Made by a program: the position numbers and the translations under genes
The notes under the pieces: generated by a model
Told to the model about the DNA's origin: nothing
The model's input: only the letters and a program-made list of their open reading frames with translations
Databases searched by the model: none
Virus record (IMG/VR): IMGVR_UViG_3300044832_000035
Span: 1-40,179 of that record
DNA from: a virus
Strand: one strand, 5' to 3'
Length of the DNA stretch: 40,179 nucleotides
Part shown: positions 2,316 to 39,261 of the stretch, piece after piece
Numbering within the stretch: position 1 is the first letter of the stretch
Layout of the letters: each line of letters starts with the position of its first letter

Positions 2316-3146
2316 CTATCCTTCATCTCCCGGTTGTCTGTCGTCATCACTTGGGCTGGTCATATCCAGATCGTCATTCATACTCGCTGGCACTAGCTTC
2401 AGCACTTGCGCCGTATGGCTGCCCTTCGCGCTCAGCTTCGTCATTGAACAGGTCGCAACCACCTCGTGGTGATCGCAGCTAGCCAGCATGAGCCCCAGCT
2501 CCGCCTCCTTGGTCCAGAGATAGATCCCATTGATTACCGCCCCGTAATAGCCGTTCGCAAAGCTGTACTTTGACAAGAGCCCCTGAAGCTCCTGAGTGCC
2601 TTCCGCGCGCTCAGACGCCGCTACAGCGCGTTTTGAGCCTTCGGGCGGCTTAGGCATGGCCGTTGATGCTCCAGCGAACTGGCGGGCATCCTGGGCCTTT
2701 GGACGCATCTTTGCTATCTTATCAAAGACCGGGTGATCGTTGTCTCTTCCCCCGTCGTCCTCGGGGTCGTCGCCCGTAGCAATGAGGAACGTCTTCATCA
2801 GAAGATATTTCTCGGAGCCGGTCAGCGCCTTATAGACTCCCTTATCCCCCTTATCCTGCCCGCACCCAGGGAAACGCAGGGTTTTGGTTTCCCCGGTGTC
2901 GCCATCCTCAAAGGTCCAATCGACCAAGACATCGGTCATATCCCCTTCGCGAACATGACTGTGTAAGGTTGGAAAACACATTATGTTGCGAGCCGCCAGC
3001 CTCGGGCGAATAGCGTCCACGAGGTCTGCTTCCATAGCGTAGTTGTACTTATGGAACGTGTTCACCCCGTTCTTCGGGATGCGCTCCACCTCTGCCATGA
3101 TCTCGCACAATTTTGTAACAAGGTTCTTTTGAATATCATTGGTCAT
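2316..3146 (-). CDS. erf: ERF-family single-strand annealing protein
   Basis: A 276-residue protein. The first 140 residues carry the ERF pattern: a helical start (NLVTKLCEIMAEVERIPK), NTFHKYNYAMEADLVDAIRP, a beta region with LVDWTFEDGDTGE, and GDKGVYKALTGSEKYLLMKTF followed by a short acidic GDDPEDD. ERF proteins (phage P22 Erf) form rings on single-stranded DNA and promote annealing-type recombination, including circularisation of phage DNA. The C-terminal part is divergent and carries a small beta-rich domain. The ATG at 3146 overlaps the upstream regulator by 11 nt. Confidence 0.88.
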   Translation of the reverse strand: MTNDIQKNLVTKLCEIMAEVERIPKNGVNTFHKYNYAMEADLVDAIRPRLAARNIMCFPTLHSHVREGDMTDVLVDWTFEDGDTGETKTLRFPGCGQDKGDKGVYKALTGSEKYLLMKTFLIATGDDPEDDGGRDNDHPVFDKIAKMRPKAQDARQFAGASTAMPKPPEGSKRAVAASERAEGTQELQGLLSKYSFANGYYGAVINGIYLWTKEAELGLMLASCDHHEVVATCSMTKLSAKGSHTAQVLKLVPASMNDDLDMTSPSDDDRQPGDEG

Positions 3147-3372
3147 TTTCCGTCTTTTCTATACTTATCTTCGTTTTCCACCATTCCTGCACCTCACTGA
3201 GTAAGAGACGCTTAGACTCCTTGCCAAATATGTAGAGCCTTAGTTCCCCCTCCCTTACCGCCCTGGAGATCTCCTTCTCGCTCACCTCGGTCATTACCGC
3301 GGCTTGCGCCCTGGTCATCATCTTGTCCCCTGGCTTTATCACATTCAGTGTGTTTTTAACGTCGTTTTTCAT
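3136..3372 (-). CDS. Excisionase/MerR-like HTH protein
   Basis: A 78-residue protein. Residues 18-65 resemble a winged helix-turn-helix of the excisionase/MerR type: a helix (MTRAQAAVMTEVSEKEISRA), then VREGELRLYIFGKESKRLL as turn and wing, and LSEVQEWW as the closing helix. Such proteins act as excisionases, Cox-like switches or repressors. It is co-transcribed between the small RHH-like gene (ATGA overlap) and erf. A palindrome copy lies inside its N-terminal codons. Confidence 0.75.
   Translation of the reverse strand: MKNDVKNTLNVIKPGDKMMTRAQAAVMTEVSEKEISRAVREGELRLYIFGKESKRLLLSEVQEWWKTKISIEKTENDQ
3339..3353. promoter_or_regulatory. Dispersed palindrome copy (two mismatches)
   Basis: TCACATTCAGTGTGT, two mismatches from TCACACTnAGTGTGA, lies inside the N-terminal codons of the HTH gene, about 200 bp downstream of the divergent switch region. 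It may be an auxiliary operator. Confidence 0.5.
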
Positions 3373-3527
3373 TTGCGGTGCTTGATCAAATAGCGATTAA
3401 TCGCCTCAAAAACCTGAAGCTCGATAGTCATGTGTCTTTTCCTTCCGATCTCCTCTAGAATCGCCCTCGGTACGCCCTCGATCCACAGAAGCTCTCGCTC
3501 GTCGTTCCCATCGTTGAATCTTTCCAT
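3369..3527 (-). CDS. Small RHH-like regulator, 52 aa
   Basis: The ORF from ATG 3527 to TGA 3369-3371 overlaps the next start as ATGA. The predicted order is a short beta strand (LLWIEGVP), helix 1 (RAILEEIGRKR) and helix 2 (TIELQVFEAINRYLIKH), which fits the Arc/CopG ribbon-helix-helix layout. It is divergent from the plus-strand RHH gene at 3658, with two palindromes between them, like a two-repressor genetic switch. The RHH call comes from pattern alone; a small helical protein of another type is possible. Confidence 0.6.
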   Translation of the reverse strand: MERFNDGNDERELLWIEGVPRAILEEIGRKRHMTIELQVFEAINRYLIKHRK

Positions 3528-3536
3528 ACATAGCAA

Positions 3537-3551
3537 TAGCACTCAGTGTGA
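3537..3551. promoter_or_regulatory. Operator in divergent switch region
   Basis: TAGCACTCAGTGTGA has a perfect right half-site and a left half with two mismatches. It lies 10 bp upstream of the minus-strand 52-aa gene and overlaps the position expected for its -10 box. Repressor binding here would block leftward transcription. Confidence 0.65.
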
Positions 3552-3572
3552 CGCATTTGGGAGCTAAGTCAA
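3544..3572 (-). promoter_or_regulatory. Putative leftward promoter (TTGACT)
   Basis: On the minus strand TTGACT (3572-3567) is a good sigma70-type -35. With 16-17 bp spacing the -10 falls in CACACT/ACACTG, inside the operator. The -10 is a poor consensus match. The arrangement resembles the TTGACT plus palindrome pair at about 31.5 kb. Confidence 0.45.
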
Positions 3573-3583
3573 GCGAAAATTCG

Positions 3584-3613
3584 GGAATTTACCGGAATTT
3601 TCCAGAATTCACT
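3584..3613. repeat. Three phased 10-bp repeats
   Basis: Three consecutive decamers, GGGAATTTAC, CGGAATTTTC and CAGAATTCAC, lie midway between the two divergent genes. A further AATT occurs at 3578. AATT recurs every 10 bp, one helical turn, which could bend the DNA or array a second regulator on one face. Confidence 0.55.
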
Positions 3614-3639
3614 TGCGCACCGCTTAAATGTGGTTTAAC

Positions 3640-3654
3640 TCACACTCAGTGAGA
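3640..3654. promoter_or_regulatory. Operator at RHH gene start
   Basis: TCACACTCAGTGAGA, one mismatch from a perfect palindrome, ends 3 nt before the ATG at 3658. This position fits autoregulation of the RHH gene. Confidence 0.7.
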
Positions 3655-3657
3655 AAA

Positions 3658-3900
3658 ATGACCCGAAAACGTAGCAGAAGGAGCGGTAACGACAGGCAGG
3701 ACCGATTTTCCATATCTGTCAGAAAAGGCAGCAATAAACTCTTGCGTAAAGTCGCCGATGAACTGAACACCGATAAATCGAAAATGACTCGCTCTGCCCT
3801 AGAGGATCACGTCAAGGCGCATTTTCATGAATTAAGCGACAGCCTCAAGGAAGAATGGGAACGATTCAAGATGGGTCACGGCACCACCGAACTACTTTGA
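3658..3900 (+). CDS. Ribbon-helix-helix DNA-binding protein
   Basis: The 80-residue product has a basic N-terminal arm (MTRKRSRRSGNDRQ), then RFSISV as the beta strand that pairs in an RHH dimer, KGSNKLLRKVADEL as helix 1, and SKMTRSALEDHVKAHF as helix 2, followed by an acidic helix. ATG 3658 was chosen over ATG 3628 because an operator occupies 3640-3654. RHH proteins bind short palindromes as dimers of dimers, making this the best candidate to bind TCACACTnAGTGTGA genome-wide. It is the first gene of the only plus-strand cluster, as expected for a prophage repressor. Confidence 0.8.
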   Translation: MTRKRSRRSGNDRQDRFSISVRKGSNKLLRKVADELNTDKSKMTRSALEDHVKAHFHELSDSLKEEWERFKMGHGTTELL

Positions 3901-3970
3901 CGTGCCTAACCATTTTATACATCATTTATTGTTGGAACTTATGACTCTACTAATTCAATATACATTAAAA

Positions 3971-3985
3971 TCACACTCAGTGTGA
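3971..3985. promoter_or_regulatory. Perfect palindromic operator
   Basis: TCACACTCAGTGTGA is a perfect 7+1+7 inverted repeat, the best copy in the window. It lies in the 92-bp gap between the RHH gene and the next plus-strand gene, 7 bp before that gene's ATG, downstream of an AT-rich stretch (3921-3970) with TATACA that may hold a promoter. Confidence 0.75.
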
Positions 3986-3992
3986 CAACTTT

Positions 3993-4172
3993 ATGATCGA
4001 TTCGCGAACTCTCTCACTAATTAACCGACAGCAAGCGGTCATCGAAGCTCAGGCCCAGCTCATCGAGAACCTTGAGGCGCAGCTTGCCGCCACTCAAGGC
4101 CAAGTCACCACCCTAGACACGCAAATGGCTATTCTCCAGCCAGTTGCGATAACAACGGTCCCAGGACCATAG
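3993..4172 (+). CDS. Small coiled-coil protein, 59 aa
   Basis: The ORF from ATG 3993 to TAG 4170-4172 encodes a helix rich in Gln, Ala and Leu (INRQQAVIEAQAQLIENLEA) with heptad-like Leu/Ile spacing, then a Pro/Val-rich tail. No signal peptide is visible. The start is 7 bp after the perfect operator. It precedes the lipoprotein gene by 9 nt, so the two are probably co-transcribed. The function is unknown. Confidence 0.6.
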   Translation: MIDSRTLSLINRQQAVIEAQAQLIENLEAQLAATQGQVTTLDTQMAILQPVAITTVPGP

Positions 4173-4181
4173 AAAGTAGAT

Positions 4182-4466
4182 ATGCACAGATATTTAATGA
4201 TCTTATGCGCAGCCGCCGTAATGGCCGGATGCGCCACTGATTACGAGCATTTGAGCGGGCCCCTTCATCGGTTCCCAACTCAAGGCGAAGTTAATCAATA
4301 CTACGCCAACGGAGGCCCTTCGACATACGCACAAGCGTATATTTCCGCTTATGATGCGACTCACCCAACGCTAGAGACAGTAGTAGACGCAATTAACAAC
4401 CAAACTCAGGCGATCAATAAACAAACTGAAGCGATTGATTACGCTGCCATTCAGGGTCGGCCATGA
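4182..4466 (+). CDS. Outer-membrane-type lipoprotein, 94 aa
   Basis: The N-terminus MHRYLMILCAAAVMAGC is a lipoprotein signal peptide with lipobox M-A-G-C, so Cys17 is the likely lipidated residue. The mature protein ends in a Gln/Asn/Ala-rich helix (DAINNQTQAINKQTEAIDYA) with near-repeats, possibly an oligomerising coiled coil. It sits behind the RHH regulator, away from the lysis genes. It could act in superinfection exclusion or as an envelope moron. The next gene overlaps as ATGA. Confidence 0.75.
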   Translation: MHRYLMILCAAAVMAGCATDYEHLSGPLHRFPTQGEVNQYYANGGPSTYAQAYISAYDATHPTLETVVDAINNQTQAINKQTEAIDYAAIQGRP

Positions 4467-4834
4467 AAAACCTAATCATCTCAGCCGCTGCGCTCGTCGC
4501 GGCTCTTACCTTGCTTGCCGCGGAAACTAATGCCAAAGAGCCCAACAAGTTCCAGGGAGCGCTCACGATTGAACAAGTGTGCGCTCAAGGGTTTGTATTC
4601 ATGCAGGCTGGTCCATCAGGCGATGAAAAGACAATCCGATGGACATTCAAATCAGTCAAAGACTGGGACGATCTCCCTATCGTCATAGACGTAGGAGCTA
4701 ACCCCAGCATGGCCGAGGTCAGGATAGCGTCTGTAGCAGCGTTAACCGAGGCCCGCTTTATCCGCGCACTACTTCATGCTGCTACCCCTAAAGAGTCACC
4801 CAAACAAGACAGTGGCCCGAAGCTTTACTTCTAA
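4463..4834 (+). CDS. Secreted protein, 123 aa
   Basis: A Sec signal peptide is clear: MKNLIISAAALVAALTLLAA, cleavage probably near ETNA-KEP. The mature part is about 95 residues of mixed alpha/beta with WTFKSVKDWDDLPIVIDVG. No family is recognised. The ATGA overlap with the lipoprotein gene indicates coupled expression, so the two may work together in the envelope. Confidence 0.7.
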   Translation: MKNLIISAAALVAALTLLAAETNAKEPNKFQGALTIEQVCAQGFVFMQAGPSGDEKTIRWTFKSVKDWDDLPIVIDVGANPSMAEVRIASVAALTEARFIRALLHAATPKESPKQDSGPKLYF

Positions 4835-4860
4835 AGCAGAAACAAGATACACCTACTAAA

Positions 4861-5283
4861 ATGACTAAATTAATCGTGCTAGCGGCCATGTGCTTGCTGG
4901 CCCCACAACTCAAAGCCCAAGCGCTCAGGAGCGCGCTCATCGTGTCTGGACCGGTGTTTAACAGCACCACGGCAAGCGAAGCTCCGTACTGGACGAACAA
5001 CACCGGCAACACTATTCGGATTTTTAAGGTATTCATCGCCATGAATGCAGGCTATGGAACCCAGCGTCTAGGGTGCGTTATCCGAGTGGATTCAAACAAC
5101 TCCCTGATGGCTACTGGATATTGGCCCTGTAACGGTATAGCTGTAACCGGTGGCGAATGGTACACATCAGAGGACACATTCAGCCCTTTCTACTTCGAGC
5201 TTCCCGCGGGTGGACAACTCTCGATCTATTGCTATTCTATCGGTGGAAACAGCGTAGCTAGCGCTGAGATCTGGTACTACTAA
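4861..5283 (+). CDS. Secreted beta-rich protein, 140 aa
   Basis: The N-terminus MTKLIVLAAMCLLAPQLKAQA is a signal peptide with an A-x-A-type end. The mature part is rich in Gly, Ser, Thr and aromatic residues in alternating strands, with Cys in GCVIRVDSNN, YWPCNG and YCYSIGG that could form disulfides in the periplasm. It resembles small periplasmic beta-sandwich proteins, but no family is certain. It is the last plus-strand gene before the convergent junction. Confidence 0.7.
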   Translation: MTKLIVLAAMCLLAPQLKAQALRSALIVSGPVFNSTTASEAPYWTNNTGNTIRIFKVFIAMNAGYGTQRLGCVIRVDSNNSLMATGYWPCNGIAVTGGEWYTSEDTFSPFYFELPAGGQLSIYCYSIGGNSVASAEIWYY

Positions 5284-12177: not shown

Positions 12178-12765
12178 CTACGTTTCTAATTTGTTTAGTT
12201 TTTTGCGGGCTTCATCCCGCGATTCCGTTAAAAGTAGACTATCAGATAAGATCCTGTCTATCACTGGTGCAAGGATCGGCATTAGTTCTTCCTTGTTAAA
12301 TTTGCACACTGGTTGTGATTTATCGGTGCGAGCGAACTCTATAGCTTCGAGCGCGTCCGCTTCTTTTTGCTCTGACCCGCAAGGAGGGGGATCAATGATT
12401 CGGTAGTTGCTAGGATCATAGCGGCAGGCAACCCAGGCTTCATCGCTAAATCCGTCTCGGTATCGTTCGAAGATCTTGCCCACACCGATAGCGCCATATC
12501 TTTGGAGCTCAGCAGCTCGTAGCGCCCCCATTGATGCGGTGCCGATGAACCGACAACCTTGTGCCATGATATAGACGAGTTCTTTGACCCAGACTGCGAG
12601 TCGTTGTCGGAATTCTCCATCGATCAATATTATCTGTTTTGGGTTATAACACAAAAAGGTGTTAAGCACATCCCCTTGAGCGGCCGGTGGAAGCCAAAGC
12701 TCGCCCTTGAGCGGTTTCGGAAGTTTCCCGGCTAGCGTTGGTCCTATGAAATAGACGCTATGCAT
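12178..12765 (-). CDS. tfuA: TfuA-like protein (YcaO partner)
   Basis: The 195-residue product shows the TfuA core: YFIGPTL (5-11), PPAAQGD (26-32), IILIDGEF (45-52), VWVKEL (58-63), ASMGALRAAEL (77-87) and GVGKIFERYRDG (94-105). TfuA proteins work with YcaO enzymes to form backbone thioamides, perhaps by activating YcaO or delivering sulfur; examples are trifolitoxin clusters and methanogen McrA. The start has AGGGGA about 5 nt upstream and overlaps ycaO by 22 nt. The usual VWHKE carries Val instead of His at residue 60. Membership is clear; the substrate is unknown. Confidence 0.92.
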   Translation of the reverse strand: MHSVYFIGPTLAGKLPKPLKGELWLPPAAQGDVLNTFLCYNPKQIILIDGEFRQRLAVWVKELVYIMAQGCRFIGTASMGALRAAELQRYGAIGVGKIFERYRDGFSDEAWVACRYDPSNYRIIDPPPCGSEQKEADALEAIEFARTDKSQPVCKFNKEELMPILAPVIDRILSDSLLLTESRDEARKKLNKLET

Positions 12766-13685
12766 CTTTCCCCTGGCTGCCAGCCCGGCAAAATCAATCC
12801 CTCAAGTCCCGATACGGTTGCCTTAACCGCCGTAAGCCGGGATGTATCCAATCCAATCTCTGCTTTCGGTTCCCGTGTCCCGAGCTTAGCTAGGGTTGTG
12901 GCCAACATCTGGCCAGCAGTCCAACCACAAATGAAACCGGCGTCGTATTTGGTTGCGTCTGTCCGGTCGTACCACTCCAGCAACTCATCGTGTCCAATCG
13001 AGCGTAAGAACTCAATATTACGTCGGTCTAGGTCGTCTCTGGCTCCAGCAATGATAACAGCTCTGGATTGAATAGCCTCCAAGATCGCGCGATTAATCGC
13101 CTGTCCTGTATCCAAATGACAACCCCAGCCCCCGAAGTTCTCCAGACCACCGTAGCGGTCAACCAAGATCGCCCAATAGACAGGTATAACGATGTCCCTG
13201 GTACAATAAAACAGGAGAACCCTGAGGTCGGCTTGCTCACATTTATCGATTAATCGTTGTGAGCTTTTTGGCAATAGGTCTGGGTCAGCTTTAGGTGGTG
13301 GCTGCCCAGTCTTTTGCCAGCGGTAGGTAGCAATCGTAACTGCATCCCGCTCGATTAGTTCTAAAAGCGCTTGCAGATAAGCATCTTCGAAGGTCGCGCC
13401 CAGCGCCTGGCCATTGCTGTGCTGGTTATCCTGATCGAATACACAAAACTCTATTGCTTCGGCCACAGCGCCAGCACGCGCTTGTTCGTCGACGAATCCT
13501 TTTCCGGCGTTGACGCTGATTCGTTTAGCAAGTGGTCGTACGCTGCTCCAGACAGGTACCCCGATAACATCAAGACCGTCAATTTTTCTAACGGCAGTGA
13601 TTCCGTACTTCTCGAATAGTTCATCTGGTCCAATCGAGTTAAGGTACGTTTCACTGTCTAACCGTAATTCGCTTCGACTTAGCAT
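12744..13685 (-). CDS. ycaO: YcaO-family cyclodehydratase/thioamide synthase
   Basis: ATG 13685 gives 313 residues and overlaps the upstream stop as ATGCTAA; a longer frame from TTG 13817 is unlikely. Diagnostic motifs are present in order: NAGKG (59-63), AVAEAIEF (73-80), ELIERDA (109-115), GCHLD (188-192), ILEAIQSR (201-208), GARDD (214-218) and a C-terminal GLDTSRL...SGLEGLILPG. These supply the ATP/Mg-binding site that phosphorylates a peptide amide oxygen. With TfuA next to it, the expected product is a thioamide rather than an azoline. No E1-like partner or dehydrogenase is visible. The gene sits between virion genes, suggesting a phage protein as target. Confidence 0.93.
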   Translation of the reverse strand: MLSRSELRLDSETYLNSIGPDELFEKYGITAVRKIDGLDVIGVPVWSSVRPLAKRISVNAGKGFVDEQARAGAVAEAIEFCVFDQDNQHSNGQALGATFEDAYLQALLELIERDAVTIATYRWQKTGQPPPKADPDLLPKSSQRLIDKCEQADLRVLLFYCTRDIVIPVYWAILVDRYGGLENFGGWGCHLDTGQAINRAILEAIQSRAVIIAGARDDLDRRNIEFLRSIGHDELLEWYDRTDATKYDAGFICGWTAGQMLATTLAKLGTREPKAEIGLDTSRLTAVKATVSGLEGLILPGWQPGERCIASIS

Positions 13686-14920
13686 CGCACCATCTGGTTC
13701 ATGAAGATTCGTACAATTGCCTTTGCTATCGGCTTCCCCTTGAGCCAGTTCCCGATTGCTCCCGCATTTTTGGCATAAAATGTTCTCAACCAGCCCGGAG
13801 CCTTGAATAGTATCCAATCTCTGAATGCCAAGTGTCCTGGCGTTCCAGGGCCGTAAACCTCCCTGGCCGCGTTACAGGCAAAAGCTGCGGCAATCGCGGT
13901 TCCTGCAGCGGATGCCGCGCTCCCTAGTCCAGACACAGCCGCTGCTCCTGCGCCAGATGTAAGCGCCGCGCTCCCTAGTGCCCCCGCCGCACCGATACCA
14001 GCCCCGATGTATTGGCCGCTTGTGTCCGGGCTACCAGGTCTAGCGCCAGTCCCGGCATTAAGGAAGTTGGAGGTTCCTTGCGCGAAAGCGCCTCCAGCGC
14101 TCGGATCGATAAATTGGTAGGCAGCCGGCACCCCGGTGTTCGGATTATATGTCGGCGTCATCTGGCCGGTCATGGCCGCCGATTGCTGGTTAAGCGCTCG
14201 ATCAACGTACTGACTGGAAGAGGCTAACTTGCTCTGGCCGCCACCCAAATACCCTAGAGCCGCGCTCCGCACGTTATTAAGATATTGTAGTCCAGCGCTC
14301 CCAGTCGTTTCACCTTCCTGTACCGCTTGAGTGACTCCGGCATCGTTACCGCGTGCAGTCTGGTTACCGCGCACATCCTGCTGAATCTCACGCATTACAC
14401 CTGGAGGGAGTTGGCCGGCAGTCGCGCTATTTAAGTCCGCGTTGTACCCGGTCCCGAGCGTCGTACGCATCGATTCCCCGGTCGGATCGATCTTCGCCAT
14501 CTGTTTTAGGGCGACTTGCTCAGGGAGTGGCGCGTTCGGATTATAGGATGGCTGCGTCTGGACTGGCGCGGGTGGAACACTAGGCGGATTCCATTGCCAT
14601 GGGCCGCCAAAATTGGGACTAGCGAGGGTCCTAAGCCCCATCGTCTGGACCTGGGATGGAGTCAGGTTATAGCGGGAACCGCCCTTGGTGTAATACTGCT
14701 GCCCGCCTGAACCGGTATAAATCTGTTCGTTACCGACTCCTGGCACATTACCTAACCCCATGCCGTACGAACCTGCATTAGGATCAGGGGCGGCGGCCTT
14801 TTGCGCAGATGACGCAGGCGAATCAGTTGCTGTGGGAGCGGGACCAGTACCAGGCCAGTACCATTTATTACCTATCTGCTGTGACCCTGGCGTGCCTTGC
14901 GCTACTTCTTGCCATGCCAT
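13679..14920 (-). CDS. Virion protein with C-terminal AREVYG domain, 413 aa
   Basis: The first 300 residues are Gly, Pro, Ser and Gln-rich and repetitive. A hydrophobic Gly/Ala segment (about 300-345) could insert in a membrane. The last 65 residues carry the C-x-AREVYG...FRDWILFKAPGW...YAKNAG pattern widely found at the C-terminus of phage tail or internal proteins. It is probably an ejected or tail-tip protein. Its stop overlaps the ycaO start, so the modifying enzyme is translated in step with it, making it one candidate target. Confidence 0.65.
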   Translation of the reverse strand: MAWQEVAQGTPGSQQIGNKWYWPGTGPAPTATDSPASSAQKAAAPDPNAGSYGMGLGNVPGVGNEQIYTGSGGQQYYTKGGSRYNLTPSQVQTMGLRTLASPNFGGPWQWNPPSVPPAPVQTQPSYNPNAPLPEQVALKQMAKIDPTGESMRTTLGTGYNADLNSATAGQLPPGVMREIQQDVRGNQTARGNDAGVTQAVQEGETTGSAGLQYLNNVRSAALGYLGGGQSKLASSSQYVDRALNQQSAAMTGQMTPTYNPNTGVPAAYQFIDPSAGGAFAQGTSNFLNAGTGARPGSPDTSGQYIGAGIGAAGALGSAALTSGAGAAAVSGLGSAASAAGTAIAAAFACNAAREVYGPGTPGHLAFRDWILFKAPGWLRTFYAKNAGAIGNWLKGKPIAKAIVRIFMNQMVRC

Positions 14921-17472: not shown

Positions 17473-18459
17473 TTAATCTGACCAATTCCAAACCTGCCCT
17501 GGATCATCATAAACCTTTGGCACGATTTGCTGGAAAGCTGCTTGGCTACTCATCTCTTCCTCGACCGCTTTCATTGCGATCGCGTTGGCCGACTGGAATT
17601 CAGCGTTACTCATGTCCTTTTGTTTCTGACGCGAGTAAGCTGCCGCCAGGGCTACATGGTAAAGAGCGTCTAAGAGCCCGCTGATACGGGGTACGGAATT
17701 ATCGCTCAAGAGCGGGTCAAACTTCATCTTTGCTCCGACCCGGATTCGGAACGGCCCGGTATACGGCGGCCAGATCACCAGATTGGTATAGCGCAAATGC
17801 TCGTCATTAGGCTGCATCGTGACGGTTGCGCCGGTCCCGGCGATCGTAAGCGGGACTGTGCCGGTCGGCTTCGTGATATTGTGCACTTCGGCATAAGTTT
17901 TAACGGTTGTGATCGGGTTCGTGCCGGTCATTGAAAACATCTCGGATTGTTCCAGACCGCTCGTATCGGTTCCCTCGATCGTGAGCGGAAACCCGGATGC
18001 CGTACCGATCGGTGTTATCGTGATTGCGCCCGGATTAAAAGCCGGGAACCCGAGCGGTTTACCTAGAAAGAAATAGCGCGGTACATTCTGAATTAAGGTG
18101 GTCAAGAAAGCATCACCTGAATATTTCTCGATCCAACCACGGTCGCGCGGGTCGAGCTTGTACGGAAACGATAGCCCACCATCAATCGAGCCTTTTACCC
18201 ATTGCACTTTATCAGCCTGCAGTGGGAGGATATTAGGGAGCCAATAGCTGGAGGTGCCTGGGATCAAAAGAGGCGATGGGCAATTCTGTTCGATTGCCGG
18301 TTCCATCATCGCTTCTTTCCAAGGGTGCATGTTGTACATGCTCTCGTAATTGCGACGTATCTGCGCTTTGACGTAGCTGAGCATGGTGACCCCTTGCGCG
18401 GCTTGGCCCAGGTCGCCTACATCCTGACAAGCGAGTGTGGCTATGTCGGATAGTGTCAT
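17473..18459 (-). CDS. Head-tail connector / tail adaptor, 328 aa
   Basis: The N-terminal helices (MTLSDIATLACQDVGDLGQ... KAQIRRNYESMYNMHPWKEA) and C-terminal helices (GLLDALYHVALAAAYSRQKQ... SANAIAMKAVEEEM) match T7 gp11-like adaptor architecture, with a beta-rich insertion (GAITITPIGTASGFPL, GTVPLTIAGTGATV) that could be an Ig-like decoration. Adaptors form a 12-mer under the portal. The ATG overlaps the upstream receptor-binding gene as ATGA, and the nozzle follows directly. Confidence 0.75.
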   Translation of the reverse strand: MTLSDIATLACQDVGDLGQAAQGVTMLSYVKAQIRRNYESMYNMHPWKEAMMEPAIEQNCPSPLLIPGTSSYWLPNILPLQADKVQWVKGSIDGGLSFPYKLDPRDRGWIEKYSGDAFLTTLIQNVPRYFFLGKPLGFPAFNPGAITITPIGTASGFPLTIEGTDTSGLEQSEMFSMTGTNPITTVKTYAEVHNITKPTGTVPLTIAGTGATVTMQPNDEHLRYTNLVIWPPYTGPFRIRVGAKMKFDPLLSDNSVPRISGLLDALYHVALAAAYSRQKQKDMSNAEFQSANAIAMKAVEEEMSSQAAFQQIVPKVYDDPGQVWNWSD

Positions 18460-19769
18460 AGCTCAGAGGAAAATGTTCCGGCCCAGCTTAGCAAAGCCCC
18501 GGCAGTGGAGGCGGTGCCAATAGTGGCTTGAGTAAAGGCGCTATCAGTGGCTAAAAGGCCGGTGCTGCATGTCCTGTTACCCGTATTGGTTACATCGTAA
18601 ATATTATTTATCGCTCCATTATTAGGGGAATAAATAACCGGAGTGGGTGCACCACTCATCGTGTTCGGGAATTTAAACATCGTCAGGAGATTCGATAAAA
18701 ACCCGGTTGGTACAAGGGAAGTAACAGCCCCCGCTGCAGTAGGCCCTATACTCGTACCTGGAACAGTGCCGTAATTATAGGTTTTGCAAAAATAGCGTTG
18801 GCATTGCCAAAGGTTCTCGTCGAAATCCATTGGCGCAAACGACGTGCAGACAGCTCCTGGCTCATGCTGCGCCAGGCAGATATCGAAGGTAGCCGCATTA
18901 GTCGCTAGGAGATTGGTCTGGCTTGCGGTCGCGTAAAAGTTACCGTTATTCCAAGCGTTTTCTTGAGTCGATTGAAACGTAACCCCGCATCCCAGACACA
19001 CACTGATCTGGTAACTGAAATCGGTTTCCGCTGTTCCCCAGGAACCAGTCCCGGTAGGTAATGCCGGAATATTCGGGAGCGCTACCCGTTGCCACACGTT
19101 GGGCGAACCGATCGACACGGTAAACTTATAAAACTGGCTAGCGTCCGCGTTATGGATCGATACGCCATAAGAACCGGAAACGCTTGTCCTGAGCCAGATC
19201 GAGAGTGAATGAACGTTATCAAAGAGTTTACGCGCTTTCTGTAATTCGATCCGTTGCGAGATCGTAAAGAACTCACCGCTCAAGAGCGATGCTTGTAGCG
19301 TGGCCACTGTTGCCCGGAGTCCATATCGCGGACGGTGACTGAAGGCTCCTCCCGCCAGTGAGCCAGCTAGATCGACCTGGGTAACGTTGATCTTACCAGT
19401 CGCCATCACGTAGTCAGTTCGGTACCGGTCAAGTGTATATTGGCCGTTGGTGACGTTGTTATACGGCCCAACCCGCTGATTTACCGCCATATCACCGTTA
19501 CAGATCGTAGTAACTGGCGAGAGTAACCCAACCGCTGCGCGCACCGCAGACTGAGTAAAGAAATTCGAGTAAAGTACCTTAGCGTATGCACCCCCGGACT
19601 GGAGAAGGAGAATCAGGTCATTGACACCTGGACCGCTAGCACCAGTCTGCGCGGAATAGAACGCTGGTTGGATCGATGATTGATTGACGATCGCGTTCAG
19701 ATCGGGTCCATCAACGCCTAGCTGCCCGCTTGTAAACTGCTTGGTTGTCGATATATCACCAATCGGCAT
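18456..19769 (-). CDS. Tail fibre / receptor-binding protein, 437 aa
   Basis: The N-terminal part (GDISTTKQFTSGQLG... GPGVNDLILLLQSGGAY) looks like an attachment region. A distal domain begins near residue 88 with ICNGDMAVNQRVG and YTLDRYRTDY, the pattern common to phage tail-fibre receptor or carbohydrate-binding domains, and contains QRVALPNIPALP and WQCQRYFCKTYNYG. It probably sets host range. The start lies 3 bp from a strong palindrome copy. It belongs with the connector and nozzle genes. Confidence 0.75.
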   Translation of the reverse strand: MPIGDISTTKQFTSGQLGVDGPDLNAIVNQSSIQPAFYSAQTGASGPGVNDLILLLQSGGAYAKVLYSNFFTQSAVRAAVGLLSPVTTICNGDMAVNQRVGPYNNVTNGQYTLDRYRTDYVMATGKINVTQVDLAGSLAGGAFSHRPRYGLRATVATLQASLLSGEFFTISQRIELQKARKLFDNVHSLSIWLRTSVSGSYGVSIHNADASQFYKFTVSIGSPNVWQRVALPNIPALPTGTGSWGTAETDFSYQISVCLGCGVTFQSTQENAWNNGNFYATASQTNLLATNAATFDICLAQHEPGAVCTSFAPMDFDENLWQCQRYFCKTYNYGTVPGTSIGPTAAGAVTSLVPTGFLSNLLTMFKFPNTMSGAPTPVIYSPNNGAINNIYDVTNTGNRTCSTGLLATDSAFTQATIGTASTAGALLSWAGTFSSEL

Positions 19770-19772
19770 AAA

Positions 19773-19787
19773 TCACACTGAGTGTTA
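19773..19787. promoter_or_regulatory. Operator in tail gene junction (one mismatch)
   Basis: TCACACTGAGTGTTA fills the 15-bp gap between the RlpA-like gene and the receptor-binding gene. Its position in a tight junction far from the switch region fits a stoperator-like silencing site. Confidence 0.65.
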
Positions 19788-23538: not shown

Positions 23539-24582
23539 TTATAATTTCCACTGCGATTTGTGTCTCAGGCATACGCCAAATAGAGGTTGCAACACGCTCC
23601 AGCCCGCATACGCCTTCCATGAGAAGTTTACGAACTGGCCAATGACATCATATTTATCGGGCTTGCCGTTAACCATCACCCTGGGAGACCACGGCGTGTT
23701 ACCTTGAAGGGCACTCGCTCCGTAGCTGTCTTTACCGGTCACAATCGCGGTAAAGATCTTAGATCCTAAGGCAAGGTCATCGGTACCGGAGTTGTTATAA
23801 ACCCCGAGTCCAGTAGCATTCAGTTCAACGAATGGGTTGGTCGAAAGGAAGAACCCGATCCCGTACAGGTTGTCAATCCAGCCTGATCGGATAGATTTAC
23901 CGCCATGTGCGAACGCATCAGCCTGGACGAATGCCGTGTTATTGGTATCCATGAACAAATCGCTTTGTCCCTGTGCACCAACGACAGCCGCATAACTGCC
24001 TTTTGCTGGCCCGGTTTTTACCTTAGGTGTCCGGTTTATACGGAGCTGGGTTGCAGCTGCGATAATGTTACGGATCGCTAGCGCTGCCGTAACACCGGTA
24101 ATACCGTTTAGCCCGGCCAGATTCGTTACCGCTGCCCCTGGAGCGCCACCGGTATACATCTGCGTAAGGCCGCTTGGTGCTGCCGCACAGCAAAGGTTGC
24201 GGATCTGTTGATCGTACCAGAGCGCGGCTTCTTCACCGAACTGGATACTTACGGCTTCACCAGTATCGTTAAACTCGGTGTCGTTAACCAAGTCGGTTAC
24301 TTGGACCCAATCATAGAATTGACTGAGGGTGATGGTGACGAACTCGAACACCATCTTACGCGAGGTGGCCACAAGGACACCTTCAGTAACCGCGTTGACG
24401 TTGGCTGCTGAAGCAGCAGGTATACGGAAAAAGCGAACGCTTTGGTTTCCATTGTTTTTCGGCACGGGCCGAAGCTGAGCGAAATCGGCAAGGTGTACCT
24501 CGTCGATTGCATGATCGAGCATCAACCGGCTAAAATATATTTCATATTCGTTTGGCCTATCGGCCAATAACGTAGCTGGCAT
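23539..24582 (-). CDS. Major capsid protein (N4 gp56-like)
   Basis: A 347-residue protein downstream of portal and scaffold. Features: early SVRFFRIPAASAANVNAVTEG, a beta segment MVFEFVTITLSQFYDWVQVTDL, then long helices (EEAALWYDQQIRNL) and a central beta domain with SYAAVVGAQGQSDLF and GIGFFLSTNPFVEL. This resembles the N4 gp56-type HK97-fold capsid proteins. It has no N-terminal delta domain, consistent with a separate scaffold gene. The start has no clear Shine-Dalgarno signal but is preceded by a palindrome half-site. Confidence 0.8.
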   Translation of the reverse strand: MPATLLADRPNEYEIYFSRLMLDHAIDEVHLADFAQLRPVPKNNGNQSVRFFRIPAASAANVNAVTEGVLVATSRKMVFEFVTITLSQFYDWVQVTDLVNDTEFNDTGEAVSIQFGEEAALWYDQQIRNLCCAAAPSGLTQMYTGGAPGAAVTNLAGLNGITGVTAALAIRNIIAAATQLRINRTPKVKTGPAKGSYAAVVGAQGQSDLFMDTNNTAFVQADAFAHGGKSIRSGWIDNLYGIGFFLSTNPFVELNATGLGVYNNSGTDDLALGSKIFTAIVTGKDSYGASALQGNTPWSPRVMVNGKPDKYDVIGQFVNFSWKAYAGWSVLQPLFGVCLRHKSQWKL

Positions 24583-24586
24583 AAAA

Positions 24587-24601
24587 GATTATTCAGTGTG
24601 A
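24587..24601. promoter_or_regulatory. Palindrome half-site before capsid gene
   Basis: The right half CAGTGTGA is exact, the left half (GATTATT) is degraded. It lies in the 22-bp gap between scaffold stop and capsid start. Counted only as a weak member of the dispersed repeat family. Confidence 0.35.
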
Positions 24602-28995: not shown

Positions 28996-30048
28996 TTATT
29001 TGTGTTGATACGCGCGGATGTATTGAACTTCCATCCGACCCATCGTGATATTGATTGGCCAGCCTCCGCCAAGTGCTAGATCCACAGTCGGAAATAACGG
29101 GTGTAGAAAAGTTTGATCGGTAGGCATTTCAAAAGTAACCACTCCGTCATAAGTGAAATGGGTGACCTGTGCGTCGATAAGCACCCCAAATCGATGAAAC
29201 GCGCCGCTCGGATTGGCTATTGTTATCGTATTTCCGCTACCAGGAGGGAGTAACTCTTGTCCGCTCGGGCTAAAAGCGTGCGCTCTTTGATGAAGTTGAG
29301 TCATATCAACCCCGTACATCTCCATGATGTCGATCTCACATTCATTAGTGGTTCTAGGAACCCTGAAACCGCCCGGAGGAATGCTTTGAAGAGTGATTGC
29401 TGGCCATACGCCACCTCCCAGTCCCGACCCGTCTGAAGGAGAACCCGGCGGGCAACCTGGAGGCAGGTTTGCTGAGACCTCGAAATAAATACTAGGGCTT
29501 GATCCCAGTGATTGGTGAAATCCGTTTCCAGCAGTGTCAACTGTCGCGACAAAGCCGGTTCTCCAATGGCAAATATTGCTATCGTTGTAAGCAGTGATAT
29601 TCAACCAACGCTTGTAAGGCGTATAGCTGAAAGGGTTGGGCGGAACAGCGTGATAAGGCTCTTTATCCAGGCTGTCACCTGCCCCAATGAGTTTTCCATT
29701 GGCATCATAAGTAGCTTCAGCTTGCCCTGTAAAGTAGGCATACCCAAAGCTGCCACCGTCCCATTCAGTATGAGGAAAGAGCGTCCAGGGAGCGGTCGGG
29801 GTGGTCGGTGAGGTCAACGTGCCCCATCCGTACCCTGGCAATATGGTATTAGCCAAGGGGCGGCTGAAATCCTCGTTAAAGGTCATGTTGTACTGAGTGA
29901 GATCGATTTTGTCGCCAACCGCGGCGTTACTCATTGCGCACCAGCCGAAGCTGAAGCCGACAACGAGTGCGATCACAACCAGTGTGATTTTTACAAAGGA
30001 ATCGCCGATTGCTGGGACGAGTTCTGGTTCAATAGGGTCATGTTTCAT
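28996..30048 (-). CDS. Membrane-anchored GH16-family glycanase, 350 aa
   Basis: Residues 20-40 (KITLVVIALVVGFSFGWC) form an N-terminal anchor or uncleaved signal. The rest follows glycoside hydrolase family 16: FNEDFSRPL at the start, SIYFEVSANLPPG, GGGVWPAITL, and the catalytic signature EIDIME with Glu238 (nucleophile), Asp240 and Glu243 (acid/base), then FHRFGVLID, FTYDGVV, and MEVQYIRAYQ at the end. GH16 enzymes cut beta-1,3 or beta-1,4 glucans and galactans. The start overlaps the upstream gene (ATGA). It may remodel host or biofilm polysaccharide. Substrate cannot be told from sequence. Confidence 0.85.
   Translation of the reverse strand: MKHDPIEPELVPAIGDSFVKITLVVIALVVGFSFGWCAMSNAAVGDKIDLTQYNMTFNEDFSRPLANTILPGYGWGTLTSPTTPTAPWTLFPHTEWDGGSFGYAYFTGQAEATYDANGKLIGAGDSLDKEPYHAVPPNPFSYTPYKRWLNITAYNDSNICHWRTGFVATVDTAGNGFHQSLGSSPSIYFEVSANLPPGCPPGSPSDGSGLGGGVWPAITLQSIPPGGFRVPRTTNECEIDIMEMYGVDMTQLHQRAHAFSPSGQELLPPGSGNTITIANPSGAFHRFGVLIDAQVTHFTYDGVVTFEMPTDQTFLHPLFPTVDLALGGGWPINITMGRMEVQYIRAYQHK
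29973..29987. promoter_or_regulatory. Dispersed palindrome copy in GH16 gene start
   Basis: TCACAACCAGTGTGA has complete outer arms with two central mismatches. It lies within the signal-anchor codons of the GH16 gene, about 60 bp after its start. Confidence 0.45.
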
Positions 30049-30506: not shown

Positions 30507-30841
30507 AAATTCTTTTCGTCTGCGTATCGCATTAGTTCTGAAAAGGTCTGCCCCCTGGCCAGGATTGCTCCAAAGCGGAGCAGGAGCCATTCAGTATCAG
30601 GCGCGTTTGGGTTTCTTGTTTCTTTTGTCCTGTTGATAACGATCCTCATCTCTCTGAACGGAGCGCGCCAGCTCCATACCCTTCCCTCCCGGTCGATGTC
30701 GGCCTTCTCCCATAGAATCTGAGGCTTCGACTCTGTTCTTTGTTCGGGCTCCTCTGGTGTTGACGTAGGGTCTGGCTCGAGAAGTGGTGGATTTTCGGTC
30801 CCTTTCTCGAATCGCCCGGTATACGGATTCTTGCCTTTCAT
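30503..30841 (-). CDS. Hypothetical protein, 112 aa
   Basis: It starts at ATG 30841 with AAAGAAG just upstream and ends with ATGA onto the secreted-protein gene. The N-terminus is Pro/Glu-rich; the C-terminal half has alternating strands and helices (VWSWRAPFREMRIVINRTKE, DTEWLLLRFGAILARGQTF). No family is recognised. It shares 245 nt with another open frame (30597-30935). Confidence 0.6.
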   Translation of the reverse strand: MKGKNPYTGRFEKGTENPPLLEPDPTSTPEEPEQRTESKPQILWEKADIDREGRVWSWRAPFREMRIVINRTKETRNPNAPDTEWLLLRFGAILARGQTFSELMRYADEKNL

Positions 30842-30935
30842 TTTCTTCTTTCTTGCTGATCAGTTTACGGTGAGCGCGTGCATCCCGTTTAGCCTTACGC
30901 TTAAGCGCTCGAAGCTCTTCAATGGTTTGGGTCAC
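30597..30935 (-). CDS. Basic coiled-coil frame overlapping its neighbour
   Basis: It starts at GTG 30935 at a palindrome copy. The first 32 residues are a convincing charged helix (MTQTIEELRALKRKAKRDAR), the only coding content between 30842 and 30918. The remaining 80 residues, Arg-rich and low complexity, overlap the 112-aa gene in another frame. Two real overlapping genes, a truncated real gene, or a frameshift junction are possible. Confidence 0.4.
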   Translation of the reverse strand: MTQTIEELRALKRKAKRDARAHRKLISKKEENERQESVYRAIRERDRKSTTSRARPYVNTRGARTKNRVEASDSMGEGRHRPGGKGMELARSVQRDEDRYQQDKRNKKPKRA

Positions 30936-31197
30936 ACCCAGTGTGTCCGGTTGCGTGCAAGACCCTCATTTGGTGGGCGAGCGTATGCCCGTAGAACCGG
31001 CATTCTTCGGCTTTCACTAGCGCCTTATTGATATCTGCCTCGCTCAAGACTTTTTCCCAGCGGTTCGCTGTATCCCAACGGTTACTCTGCCAGCCTCGTT
31101 TTGCATTCCTGGTTCGATTCAAGATGCTTTCGCACGGCTTGCAATAGGTGCGCTTAGGCAACGTATTGAGTTGGTGGCAGCGTCGGCAGTGATTCAC
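30919..31197 (-). CDS. Small zinc-ribbon protein, 92 aa
   Basis: C-x-x-C pairs at residues 4-7 and 19-22 (MNHCRRCHQ, YCKPCES) form a likely zinc ribbon, followed by a basic, Trp-containing helix region. GTG 31197 overlaps the upstream stop (GTGA). Probably a nucleic-acid-binding accessory protein. Confidence 0.65.
   Translation of the reverse strand: MNHCRRCHQLNTLPKRTYCKPCESILNRTRNAKRGWQSNRWDTANRWEKVLSEADINKALVKAEECRFYGHTLAHQMRVLHATGHTGCDPNH
30932..30946. promoter_or_regulatory. Dispersed palindrome copy at gene start
   Basis: TCACACCCAGTGTGT (two mismatches) covers the GTG start at 30935 and lies inside the end of the zinc-finger gene. Confidence 0.5.
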
Positions 31198-31529
31198 AGG
31201 AGTCTTCTCGGTACGCCTTGCGCCACCAGGCGTTCATCGCGCTCGCGAACGAACTCTCGAGCGTTCGCTAGATCAAAGGGATGTTGCTCTAGTTCGAGCT
31301 GGCCCTCGTAGAGTTCAGCAGCTTCGAGTAAAAGCTCTAATGAAACGGAAGAAGGATTGCGTTCCGCTATGTAATCACGGTAAAGGGTGTGCGTGGTGTT
31401 GGCTGGGTTTTTCAAGTACACATCGATCGAGTCCAGAACTTCTTCCAGCTTAACCAAGAGAATCGATTCTTTACACCAGGCGCTAACGCTTATGTCCACA
31501 CTCAGTGTGAATCTTAAGCCGTCAGTCAA
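31194..31529 (-). CDS. Hypothetical protein, up to 111 aa
   Basis: The open frame runs from TTG 31529, but a promoter-like TTGACT and a palindrome overlap its first codons, so the true start may be GTG 31499 or TTG 31457. From residue 25 the product is helical and acidic (LVKLEEVLDSIDVYLKN, LELLLEAAELYEGQLELEQ). It is linked to the zinc-ribbon gene by GTGA. No family is recognised. Confidence 0.55.
   Translation of the reverse strand: MTDGLRFTLSVDISVSAWCKESILLVKLEEVLDSIDVYLKNPANTTHTLYRDYIAERNPSSVSLELLLEAAELYEGQLELEQHPFDLANAREFVRERDERLVAQGVPRRLL
31496..31529 (-). promoter_or_regulatory. TTGACT element plus operator
   Basis: On the minus strand TTGACT (31529-31524) is followed after 13 bp by a palindrome copy (31496-31510; CCACACTCAGTGTGA on the plus strand, one mismatch). 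The switch-region promoter at 3572 has the same TTGACT with a 15-bp gap to its palindrome. This suggests an internal repressor-controlled promoter for the accessory genes. The -10 match is poor. Confidence 0.45.
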
Positions 31530-33641: not shown

Positions 33642-35288
33642 TCAGTCATTCTCAGGTTGATTCGGATCTATCCATGAGGTTGGTCCAGCGTTGGGCCAGG
33701 TATGGGCGAGATCAGGGAGGACGATTGCATATAGCGGACCTGGCCACACGTTCGGCACGTCCCCGATATATGGGCCGCCCAAATGCTTCCCGGCGTGAAT
33801 TCTCCCAACATGATCGTGTTGAGCAACCTGTTCCAAGCTGAAGTTAATTCCTGAGACGGTGAACACTGGCACATTCCAACCGGTACCACAGAAGAAGGGG
33901 CCGATAAAGCCTGTTGCACGCGCTAGCTTAGTCCCAGAGCCAACGATTGCAATAGGCTGGCTCACAACCAGTGTGTTCGACCAAACGCAGTTACCGGACG
34001 GTATAACCACCGTATCACCAACACTAGCCAGTGCGACCGCTGCGCTTACGTCGGTATACGAACAGCTAGCCGACACCACTGTCTTTGGTCCAGTCAATAG
34101 CGCTGGCAACCCGAGCGCTGCCAAGCTCGCTATCCCGAATGCCGTAATGGTTTGCGGGGAACCGGCAATCGCTATGGTCGGGAGCCCGAACGCCATCCCG
34201 CTTGCTATCCCGATTCCGTGAATGAGCTGGTTAAGCTGAGCCAAACCGAACGCGTCGCTCGGCACGATCCCGCTCGGATGAATAATAAGGTTGAGTTGCG
34301 GGTTACCGAGCGCTGCGCCTGATGCGATCCCGGTTGGGTGAATGGTGAAGTTAAGCTGTGGGTTGCCTAACGCTGCGCCACTTGCTATCCCTGATGGATG
34401 AATGGTGAAATTAAGCTGTGGCAGCCCAAGAGCAGCTCCGCTAGCAATACCGGTTGGATAAACCGTTAAGTTGAGCTGTGGGTTGCCGGCTGCTGCTCCA
34501 CTCGCTATCCCAGTCGGACTGATGGTCTGCGCTACGGGTGCCGGGATGAACCAAGTTCCGCTCCCTCTGTTGGCAGTCCATGTTTGCCATTCGTCCGGCG
34601 AATTGTTGTATACGACCGTGTTTCCGTCATCCCAGGAATCGGTGAGTACGCCTAGCGGATCGAGACTGAACGGATCAGGAACAAAGCCTAGCGCACCGGT
34701 CTGTGTCCAGGTGGACGCCAGCACTTCGTCCGGCTGGTTGACGGTTGCATTACCAAAGCGCAGGAAGCTGATCAGGTTCGGGCGTTCGATCGTTCGCGGG
34801 TCAGCCCCCTGAGCTAGCGCGTACACTTCGGCATCAGTGAGCGCAATGTTCCAGATGGCCGGGTACGCGAATGAACCGCTATAGCCTAAACTGGCAGCAG
34901 TCGATATAAACCAACGCGTATTGGTGAACGCAGCCGGGACATTGGATGTCGCGTTGGTCTGTTTATCGCCTCCGTTGAGATAGGCAGCTCGCAGTACGGA
35001 ACTAGTGAATACACCACATACGTGAGCCCAAACCCCGAGCCTGAGCGCAGTAACGGTGCTGGCCGTAACCCCGGTACCAGCCGCTTTACTCTGGACGAAT
35101 ACTGTTCCGGTCCCGGTATTGGTACCGACCTTGAACCCGTTCGCGTCGGTAGCGTCCCCGAGCTCAAAGAGGTTCATAGCCGCCCCGAAATTGGCGGGCT
35201 TAACCCAGAGCGATACGGTTAAAGGGGAGCTTTGAGCTAGGGCTGAGCCTAGGCTGAGATAAGAAGGAGCAACACCAGAGACGGCCAC
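33642..35288 (-). CDS. LamG plus GIASGAA-repeat structural protein, 548 aa
   Basis: Residues 10-165 form a LamG/concanavalin-like domain (SPLTVSLWVKPANF, GVWAHVCGVFTSS, YPAIWNIALTDAEVYALAQG). Residues 255-395 contain about seven 20-residue repeats built on GIASGAALGNPQLN, a unit also seen in other phage tail proteins. Residues 402-450 begin a right-handed beta-helix (DVSAAVALASVGDTVVIPSG), as in tailspike or pectate-lyase proteins, but the helix is cut short and the last 70 residues look unlike it. Probably a tail or decoration protein binding carbohydrate. Possible C-terminal truncation. Confidence 0.7.
   Translation of the reverse strand: MAVSGVAPSYLSLGSALAQSSPLTVSLWVKPANFGAAMNLFELGDATDANGFKVGTNTGTGTVFVQSKAAGTGVTASTVTALRLGVWAHVCGVFTSSVLRAAYLNGGDKQTNATSNVPAAFTNTRWFISTAASLGYSGSFAYPAIWNIALTDAEVYALAQGADPRTIERPNLISFLRFGNATVNQPDEVLASTWTQTGALGFVPDPFSLDPLGVLTDSWDDGNTVVYNNSPDEWQTWTANRGSGTWFIPAPVAQTISPTGIASGAAAGNPQLNLTVYPTGIASGAALGLPQLNFTIHPSGIASGAALGNPQLNFTIHPTGIASGAALGNPQLNLIIHPSGIVPSDAFGLAQLNQLIHGIGIASGMAFGLPTIAIAGSPQTITAFGIASLAALGLPALLTGPKTVVSASCSYTDVSAAVALASVGDTVVIPSGNCVWSNTLVVSQPIAIVGSGTKLARATGFIGPFFCGTGWNVPVFTVSGINFSLEQVAQHDHVGRIHAGKHLGGPYIGDVPNVWPGPLYAIVLPDLAHTWPNAGPTSWIDPNQPEND
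33962..33976. promoter_or_regulatory. Weak palindrome copy
   Basis: TCACAACCAGTGTGT has three mismatches and is coding. Listed only as a marginal family member. Confidence 0.25.
34090..34526 (-). repeat. Tandem 60-bp coding repeats
   Basis: About seven in-frame 60-bp units encode the P-x-GIASGAALGxPQLNxT repeat. The middle four units are closest to each other, suggesting recent expansion, and the outer ones are diverged. Confidence 0.85.
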
Positions 35289-36665: not shown

Positions 36666-36680
36666 ACACACTCAGTGTGC
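36666..36680. promoter_or_regulatory. Operator in terminase intergenic region
   Basis: ACACACTCAGTGTGC has a perfect 13-bp core, CACACTCAGTGTG, with only the outermost bases changed. It lies in the noncoding gap 22 bp from the small terminase stop. Confidence 0.65.
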
Positions 36681-36701: not shown

Positions 36702-37223
36702 CTACCCGGCTTCGCCTTCTGCTTCTTGAGCTTCTTGAACGCTTTGTTGGCGTTTGTCTTGGAGCGCTTTGGTTTCATCTAAACGCTTGCGAGCATCTTC
36801 AAGCTCATGCTGATTGCTATGCAGCTGATTAAGCTGGTTGAAGCTAAATGACTGCGTGTTGCTAGGTGCAATAGCCGGGAATAAATCTCTGTACGTCCTG
36901 GAGCGCTCAAGCATCCAGGTGAATCGCTGCCAACCTTTCGGTTCGGCTTCGGCTTTGGCGATTTGTGCTTCGATGTAATCACTTTTCGCGCGCGCAAGTT
37001 CGCTCTGGAAGTCTTCTGTCTTTTTCCAGGCTTCATAAGTACTTAATGGAACGTAAGAACAAGCTGCGGCCATTTCATCGGAGTGACCGCGAGCTAATGC
37101 CTTACAAAGCTCCGCAATGAGTTCAGGAGTCGCTTTGGAGGGCCGCCCTAGCTTCCGGGCTGATCCAACCGCCTGGCGAGAGCTGCGCTTCTTGTGAAGC
37201 TTGGCTGATCCGTTCTGGTCCAT
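36702..37223 (-). CDS. Small terminase subunit, 173 aa
   Basis: Residues 25-75 form a helix-turn-helix of the type in phage small terminases: GRPSKATPELIAELCKALA, then GHSDEMAAACSYVPLSTYEAWKKTEDF. A helical central domain (LARAKSDYIEAQIAKAEAEP then WQRFTWMLERSRTYRDLF) fits oligomerisation, and the C-terminal 50 residues are Gln/Glu-rich. It would recognise phage DNA and load it on the large terminase, which lies 3.3 kb downstream. The start ATG 37223 overlaps the previous gene by 101 nt. Confidence 0.75.
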   Translation of the reverse strand: MDQNGSAKLHKKRSSRQAVGSARKLGRPSKATPELIAELCKALARGHSDEMAAACSYVPLSTYEAWKKTEDFQSELARAKSDYIEAQIAKAEAEPKGWQRFTWMLERSRTYRDLFPAIAPSNTQSFSFNQLNQLHSNQHELEDARKRLDETKALQDKRQQSVQEAQEAEGEAG

Positions 37224-39022: not shown

Positions 39023-39261
39023 TGCTTAAAGAATTTGATGGTTATGGGTTTACCTTTGCGCCTTGGTTTAGTGCCAAAAACGGCGATATCTGCCAGGTTC
39101 ATAGCGTGATCGAGCAGCGCCTTACTGAAATACTTATCCCAAACGCTGGCTGGTGGCGGAGGGAATTTCTTCCAATAGACTTCGCGCTTAAATTCTCCCT
39201 CAAGTTTGATTAGCTCGTAATCAATGCGATCGAGTTCGGCTTCACGTCGGGAGTTGGTCAT
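39019..39261 (-). CDS. Hypothetical protein, 80 aa
   Basis: ATG 39261 overlaps the metallophosphatase stop (ATGA) and is preferred to GTG 39270. Charged N-terminal helix (RREAELDRIDYELIKLEGE), then a Pro patch (FPPPPAS) and ending with a basic GTKPRRKGKPITIKF. No domain recognised. Confidence 0.6.
   Translation of the reverse strand: MTNSRREAELDRIDYELIKLEGEFKREVYWKKFPPPPASVWDKYFSKALLDHAMNLADIAVFGTKPRRKGKPITIKFFKQ

Follow-up and report, generated by a model that had tools for sequence, protein, structure and literature searches.

Two small divergent genes in the 40,179-base record of an uncultured virus analysed here (the window, which is without a terminal repeat) on balance probably serve a podovirus-like phage as its main control over early genes, acting as an immI-type repressor pair with stoperator-like sites dispersed over the genome. 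Nearly all genes of the window point leftward; the exceptions include a rightward cassette at 3658-5283, which diverges from a leftward operon that begins at 3527. A preliminary description had placed two small divergent genes across a 130-bp region at this junction, and both were found as ORFs on either side of a gap (3528-3657) of exactly 130 bp. A 13-bp near-palindrome, CACACTSAGTGTG, adjoins the start codon of each gene. These are the operators that had been predicted for the two ends of the region at 3537 and 3640, and each lies one base away from those positions. The features of the region are listed below.

3369-3527, minus strand: small regulator of 52 aa, RHH-like by pattern (ATG 3527, stop 3369)
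3658-3900, plus strand: RHH-type repressor candidate of 80 aa, Mnt-sized (ATG 3658, stop 3900)
3538-3550, no strand assigned: operator-like near-palindrome AGCACTCAGTGTG, 10 nt before the ATG of the 52-aa gene
3641-3653, no strand assigned: operator-like near-palindrome CACACTCAGTGAG, 4 nt before the ATG of the 80-aa gene
3585-3609, plus strand: 10-bp tandem array with three exact GAATT units, at the centre of the divergent region
3136-3372, minus strand: HTH_17/excisionase-type DNA-binding protein of 78 aa, second gene of the early operon
2316-3146, minus strand: Erf-type single-strand annealing recombinase, third gene of the early operon
3993-4172, plus strand: coiled-coil-like protein of 59 aa, second gene of the cassette
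4182-5283, plus strand: remainder of the cassette, ORF calls of 94, 123 and 140 aa

The 52-aa gene is the first of the leftward early operon and the 80-aa gene opens the rightward cassette. The longest ORF of the former has 57 aa, from a GTG at 3542, and that of the latter 90 aa, from an ATG at 3628; these longer starts would place an operator wholly or partly within the coding region. At the centre of the region, GAATTN5GAATTN5GAATT is exact at 3585-3609 (expected 0.07 times in the whole record at two or fewer mismatches), with a degenerate fourth unit at 3575. This array is a candidate for a second, cooperative operator or for an AT-rich upstream promoter element. A minus-strand TTGACT hexamer, recognized by eye, lies 16 nt upstream of the 13-bp site, so that a -10 region could lie under the site; no promoter was listed at this hexamer by the consensus promoter scan. 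The whole window contains no Rfam matches and no tRNAs.

The more surprising part, which the preliminary description missed, is that the 13-bp sites are dispersed across the genome. Besides the two that flank the divergent region, the following strong copies were observed, none with a strand assigned.

3340-3352: CACATTCAGTGTG, 18 nt upstream of 3321, the likelier start of the HTH_17 gene
3972-3984: exact copy, CACACTCAGTGTG, 8 nt before the start of the 59-aa ORF
1416-1428: copy overlapping the start codon of a 50-aa ORF (1266-1418)
19774-19786: copy 4 nt upstream of a tail-fibre-type gene (18456-19769)
30933-30945: copy overlapping the GTG start of 30597-30935
31497-31509: exact copy at a possible GTG start (31499) of 31194-31529
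36667-36679: exact copy in the gap after a small-terminase-type gene (36702-37223)

Matches to CACACTSAGTGTG with up to three mismatches numbered 20 in the whole record, compared to 6.4 expected, and none of 100 shuffles reached 20. A de novo search returned CACAC-N3-GTGTG as the commonest 5+5 palindrome of the record, with five copies against shuffle maxima of 2-3. The nine strong copies scored 19.2-25.7 on a weight matrix for which the best score in 10 shuffled genomes was 15.0; the matrix was trained on these nine copies, and the mismatch count and the de novo search are the independent tests. With 3321 taken as the HTH_17 start (an alternative ATG that has the better ribosome site), eight of the nine site centres fall close to a start codon, from 25 nt upstream of it to 26 nt downstream. 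When copies with at most one mismatch were scored against a gene list built regardless of the sites, seven of nine lay no more than 40 nt from a start (p=8e-6 against a background of 11.6%), and four of six were so placed when the switch region was excluded (p=0.003); this set omits 3538 and includes 25589. Degenerate matches inside genes, which score 13-17 (25589, 29974, 30474, 33963, 12305 and 16075), could be weak sites or could have arisen by chance. Just upstream of the start of the major capsid gene, at 24582-24600, there is a half-copy of the operator (TCACACTGA).

Palindromes that overlap or adjoin start codons might be RNA hairpins at ribosome sites, exerting translational control, rather than DNA operators, and the repeat would indeed fold as a stem of 5-6 bp. 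Read in the sense of the transcript, however, the central base is C in four copies and G in five, with no strand preference, and mismatches in one arm occur without compensation in the other. One of the nine sites is 111 nt from any start, and ribosome-site motifs are generally weak in this phage. We consider RNA hairpins very improbable and dropped this reading on account of the neutral centre base and the uncompensated mismatches.

The HTH_17 protein matched phrog_66 (E=3.4e-7), TIGR01764 (E=6.9e-6, just below cut-off) and Pfam HTH_17 (E=3.3e-4, below cut-off), and the Erf-type protein matched Pfam ERF (E=7.2e-13) and phrog_155 (E=6.1e-28). A nuclease-type gene lies farther along the operon, beyond Erf. 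One relative found through Erf (L005) was set aside as an unrelated phage; it has an integrase-like gene and is without the 13-bp site. Excisionase-type proteins usually bind direct, asymmetric repeats, and it is for this reason, too, that we regard as unlikely the proposal that the HTH_17/excisionase-type protein or a host regulator binds the 13-bp sites while the two small proteins are bystanders. It gains from the HTH_17 protein being better supported as DNA-binding than either RHH candidate, and from the site just upstream of the HTH_17 start, but it is precisely the divergent RHH-like pair that two of the sites flank, and such proteins usually autoregulate.

Evidence that the 80-aa protein is an RHH-type repressor comes from profiles and from comparison with a related virus. 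In PHROG it matched phrog_876 (transcriptional repressor, E=0.0044) and phrog_582 (Arc-like repressor, E=0.15), and a six-frame search of the whole record with phrog_582 gave a single, weak match, the 80-aa gene itself (3652-3825, plus strand, E=0.0023). Its RFSISV strand is in register with the Arc/Mnt strand. Neither the 80-aa nor the 52-aa protein had close homologues in viral contigs. Matches of the 80-aa protein in phage records (E 0.04-0.9), two of which resemble a glycosidase segment, were judged to be chance, and the one Pfam RHH_1 match in the record was spurious, covering only 16 residues. A search of 58 loci that carry two sites about 100 bp apart yielded no convincing relative of the window's proteins.

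The related virus, IMGVR_UViG_3300012362_000001 (G002; 41,118 b with a 123-bp end repeat), has virion genes related to those of the window, the capsid protein being 71-75% identical and the portal 55%. At the equivalent place we observed two divergent genes, one of 61 aa and one of 63 aa, the latter followed by an HTH-like and then a recombinase-like gene; the 63-aa gene, RHH-like, has the operon position of the 52-aa gene, and the other arm carries a 111-aa coiled-coil-like protein. Thus the layout of the divergent pair is the same in the two records, whereas the regulators have little sequence similarity and the recombinase appears by eye to be RecT-like in G002 and is Erf in the window. To rank the 633 ORFs of both records we used an Arc/Mnt profile made of 15 proteins, taken from P22 and further phages. 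The 61-aa protein of G002 came first and its 63-aa protein second, their scores being matched by 0 and 10 of 1000 shuffles, respectively. The 80-aa protein was not singled out by this profile (about 24th among the 633; shuffle p 0.16), and the 52-aa protein scored no better than shuffles (p 0.70). Aligned directly to the 63-aa protein of G002, the 80-aa protein matched across both helices (equalled by 0 of 2000 shuffles) and the 52-aa protein matched over both helices in register without a gap (shuffle p about 0.017), the p-values being rough and uncorrected for the six pairs that were tried. G002 is the best support for an RHH pair. That its layout survives though the regulator sequences have largely diverged is, like the dispersal of the sites, a surprising point that the preliminary description missed. 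G002 had no CACACTSAGTGTG sites and no other palindrome enriched above shuffles, so the dispersed-operator part is not conserved there. The early region of G002 (L011:5010-7048) also encodes a Lar-type restriction alleviation domain and an MT-A70 methyltransferase.

RHH proteins on both arms, as the preliminary description had it, fared unevenly: the 80-aa protein has the weak profile matches given above, and the 52-aa protein matched no family or homologue in any database searched, viral contigs included. The fold of the 52-aa protein had been named as the refuting test, and a single-sequence model predicts an extended segment followed by helices at 21-29 and 35-49, at low confidence (pLDDT 62). 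The 80-aa protein was modelled by AF2 from its single sequence as a two-helix hairpin, not beta-alpha-alpha (pLDDT 75), and a fold search with both models returned no significant match. RHH strands form in the dimer only, and alignment-free monomer models therefore decide little. The 52-aa protein, which is Arc-sized, probably has the RHH fold. Were its ORF no gene, or its product no RHH protein, control of the early operon would fall to the 80-aa repressor alone; the database and profile results for the 52-aa protein are what this alternative has in its favor. We think it improbable, as the 52-aa ORF has the operator on one side and on the other the HTH_17 gene, whose end it overlaps; its product can be aligned in register to the 63-aa protein, and there is an RHH-like counterpart at the same place in G002.

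The divergent pair most resembles that of P22, and the earlier comparison with Arc and Mnt proved apt. In the P22 immI record, mnt (83 aa, minus strand) and arc (53 aa, plus strand) are separated by 90 bp; in both phages a long and a short gene of nearly the same sizes (83/53 and 80/52 aa) diverge from a short intergenic region that holds both promoters, the short gene leads an operon, and RHH proteins are, probably in the case of the window, encoded on both arms. RHH on both arms is already known from Arc/Mnt and is by itself no novelty. The P22 pair controls the antirepressor gene ant and does so in the secondary immunity region only (PMC8022706), and a long/short divergent pair of the Arc family likewise leads an antirepressor gene in Kapi1, Midgardsormr38, PfDIW6, SPN3UB and Edno5. 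In the window, by contrast, HTH_17 and Erf come after the short gene and no antirepressor gene was found, the sites recur genome-wide, and there is no detectable similarity to Arc or Mnt. Since ant does not follow the 52-aa gene, we regard the pair as working in the manner of immI and do not class it as a member.

By analogy with mnt/arc, the Mnt-sized protein would be the blocker of the early operon and the Arc-sized protein its early, self-limiting partner. In the scheme that we infer for which protein binds which site and what is repressed, the 80-aa protein would be the main repressor, binding the CACACTSAGTGTG sites as RHH dimers of dimers, blocking the 52-aa/HTH_17/Erf operon and limiting its own synthesis. 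The 52-aa protein would be made first from the early promoter and would later turn both promoters down, plausibly through the central GAATT array. The other 13-bp sites at gene starts would let the 80-aa repressor hold down the cassette and structural genes.

Dispersed sites of this kind would be a palindromic version of the stoperators of L5. In this Cluster A mycobacteriophage, a 13-bp site is repeated genome-wide at promoters and in short gene gaps (PMC9283540). There are more than 20 of these sites; each is asymmetric and points in the direction of transcription, and the repressor that binds them is a monomer with two domains and an HTH. The window is alike in repeating a 13-bp site across the genome (nine strong copies, eight at a start codon) and unlike L5 in that the site is palindromic and without orientation, has about nine strong copies and has an RHH protein as its candidate binder. 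Another partial parallel is F55 of SSV1, a small viral RHH protein that acts at several operators at early promoters and its own promoter and keeps the silent state (PMC9608457). A small viral RHH protein (a candidate here) and several operator copies are shared with the window, but SSV1 is an archaeal virus with a single RHH protein, a non-palindromic 11-nt site and no divergent partner described (PMC9608457).

The strongest form of this proposal, an RHH master repressor that acts genome-wide through palindromic start-codon stoperators of early, cassette and structural genes and is opposed by an RHH partner, with an immI-type system promoted to main control, is rather doubtful at present. If true, it would mean that an Arc/Mnt-type pair, which governs secondary immunity in P22, can run the main early switch elsewhere, in a phage lineage unrelated to P22; that scattered operators like those of L5 evolved once more, with another DNA-binding fold; and that a single small protein could keep a large part of the virus silent. 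It would also supply a concrete signature of sites and gene layout for finding regulators in uncultured phages where homologues are not detectable.

In the rightward cassette, the 59-aa protein was weakly similar to the 111-aa protein at the equivalent place in G002 (BLASTP E=0.047). The three ORFs at 4182-5283 had no family match; each has, as judged by eye, a lipoprotein- or signal-peptide-like N-terminus, and they are possibly superinfection exclusion or envelope genes.

Whether the pair serves lysogeny is a separate matter, and any lysogenic state would be conjectural. The preliminary description had named the locus the lysis-lysogeny switch. The layout on which that claim drew, with opposed small repressor-type genes and shared operators placed before an early operon, is supported and is repeated in G002 and in P22 immI, but the switch itself was not borne out: neither the window nor G002 matched integrase (PF00589) or resolvase (PF00239) profiles, for which the controls were positive, and no prophage relatives were found in 84,980 bacterial and archaeal genomes, a weak search that used two structural proteins and few seed peptides. 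Temporal control in a strictly lytic phage, with the pair only timing early and late expression, is a serious possibility, though short of probable. These two negative results favor it, as does the fact that, judged by the portal, the closest relatives with names are uncultured phages and Pelagibacter phages. However, sites at the starts of structural genes fit a silenced, superinfection-excluding state more easily, and so does a secreted/lipoprotein-like cassette beside the repressor. At the right end of the window a metallophosphoesterase frame (39258-40179) runs off, its gene seemingly without its beginning; the record is therefore incomplete there, and an integrase could be in the missing stretch. 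A full lysis-lysogeny switch, in which the 80-aa protein would keep a prophage silent, is conceivable and somewhat doubtful. Apart from the layout, it can draw on the dispersed sites, which are like those of L5-type temperate phages (PMC9283540, PMC6550527), and on the existence of RHH lysogeny regulators such as F55 with its several operators (PMC9608457). Against it are the missing matches to integration genes in both records and the restriction of such a pair to secondary immunity, for ant, in P22 (PMC8022706).

Further regions of the window drew our attention. A YcaO cyclodehydratase gene (12744-13817; Pfam PF02624, E=2.3e-39) stands amid the virion genes, and neither it nor its neighbour at 12178-12765 had a blastp match in G002 or a PHROG match. 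A peptide- or protein-modifying enzyme of this type looks unusual in such a phage. GH16-like and LamG-like genes are present at 28996-30048 and 33642-35288, and diverged direct repeats occur with them at 34265-34511.
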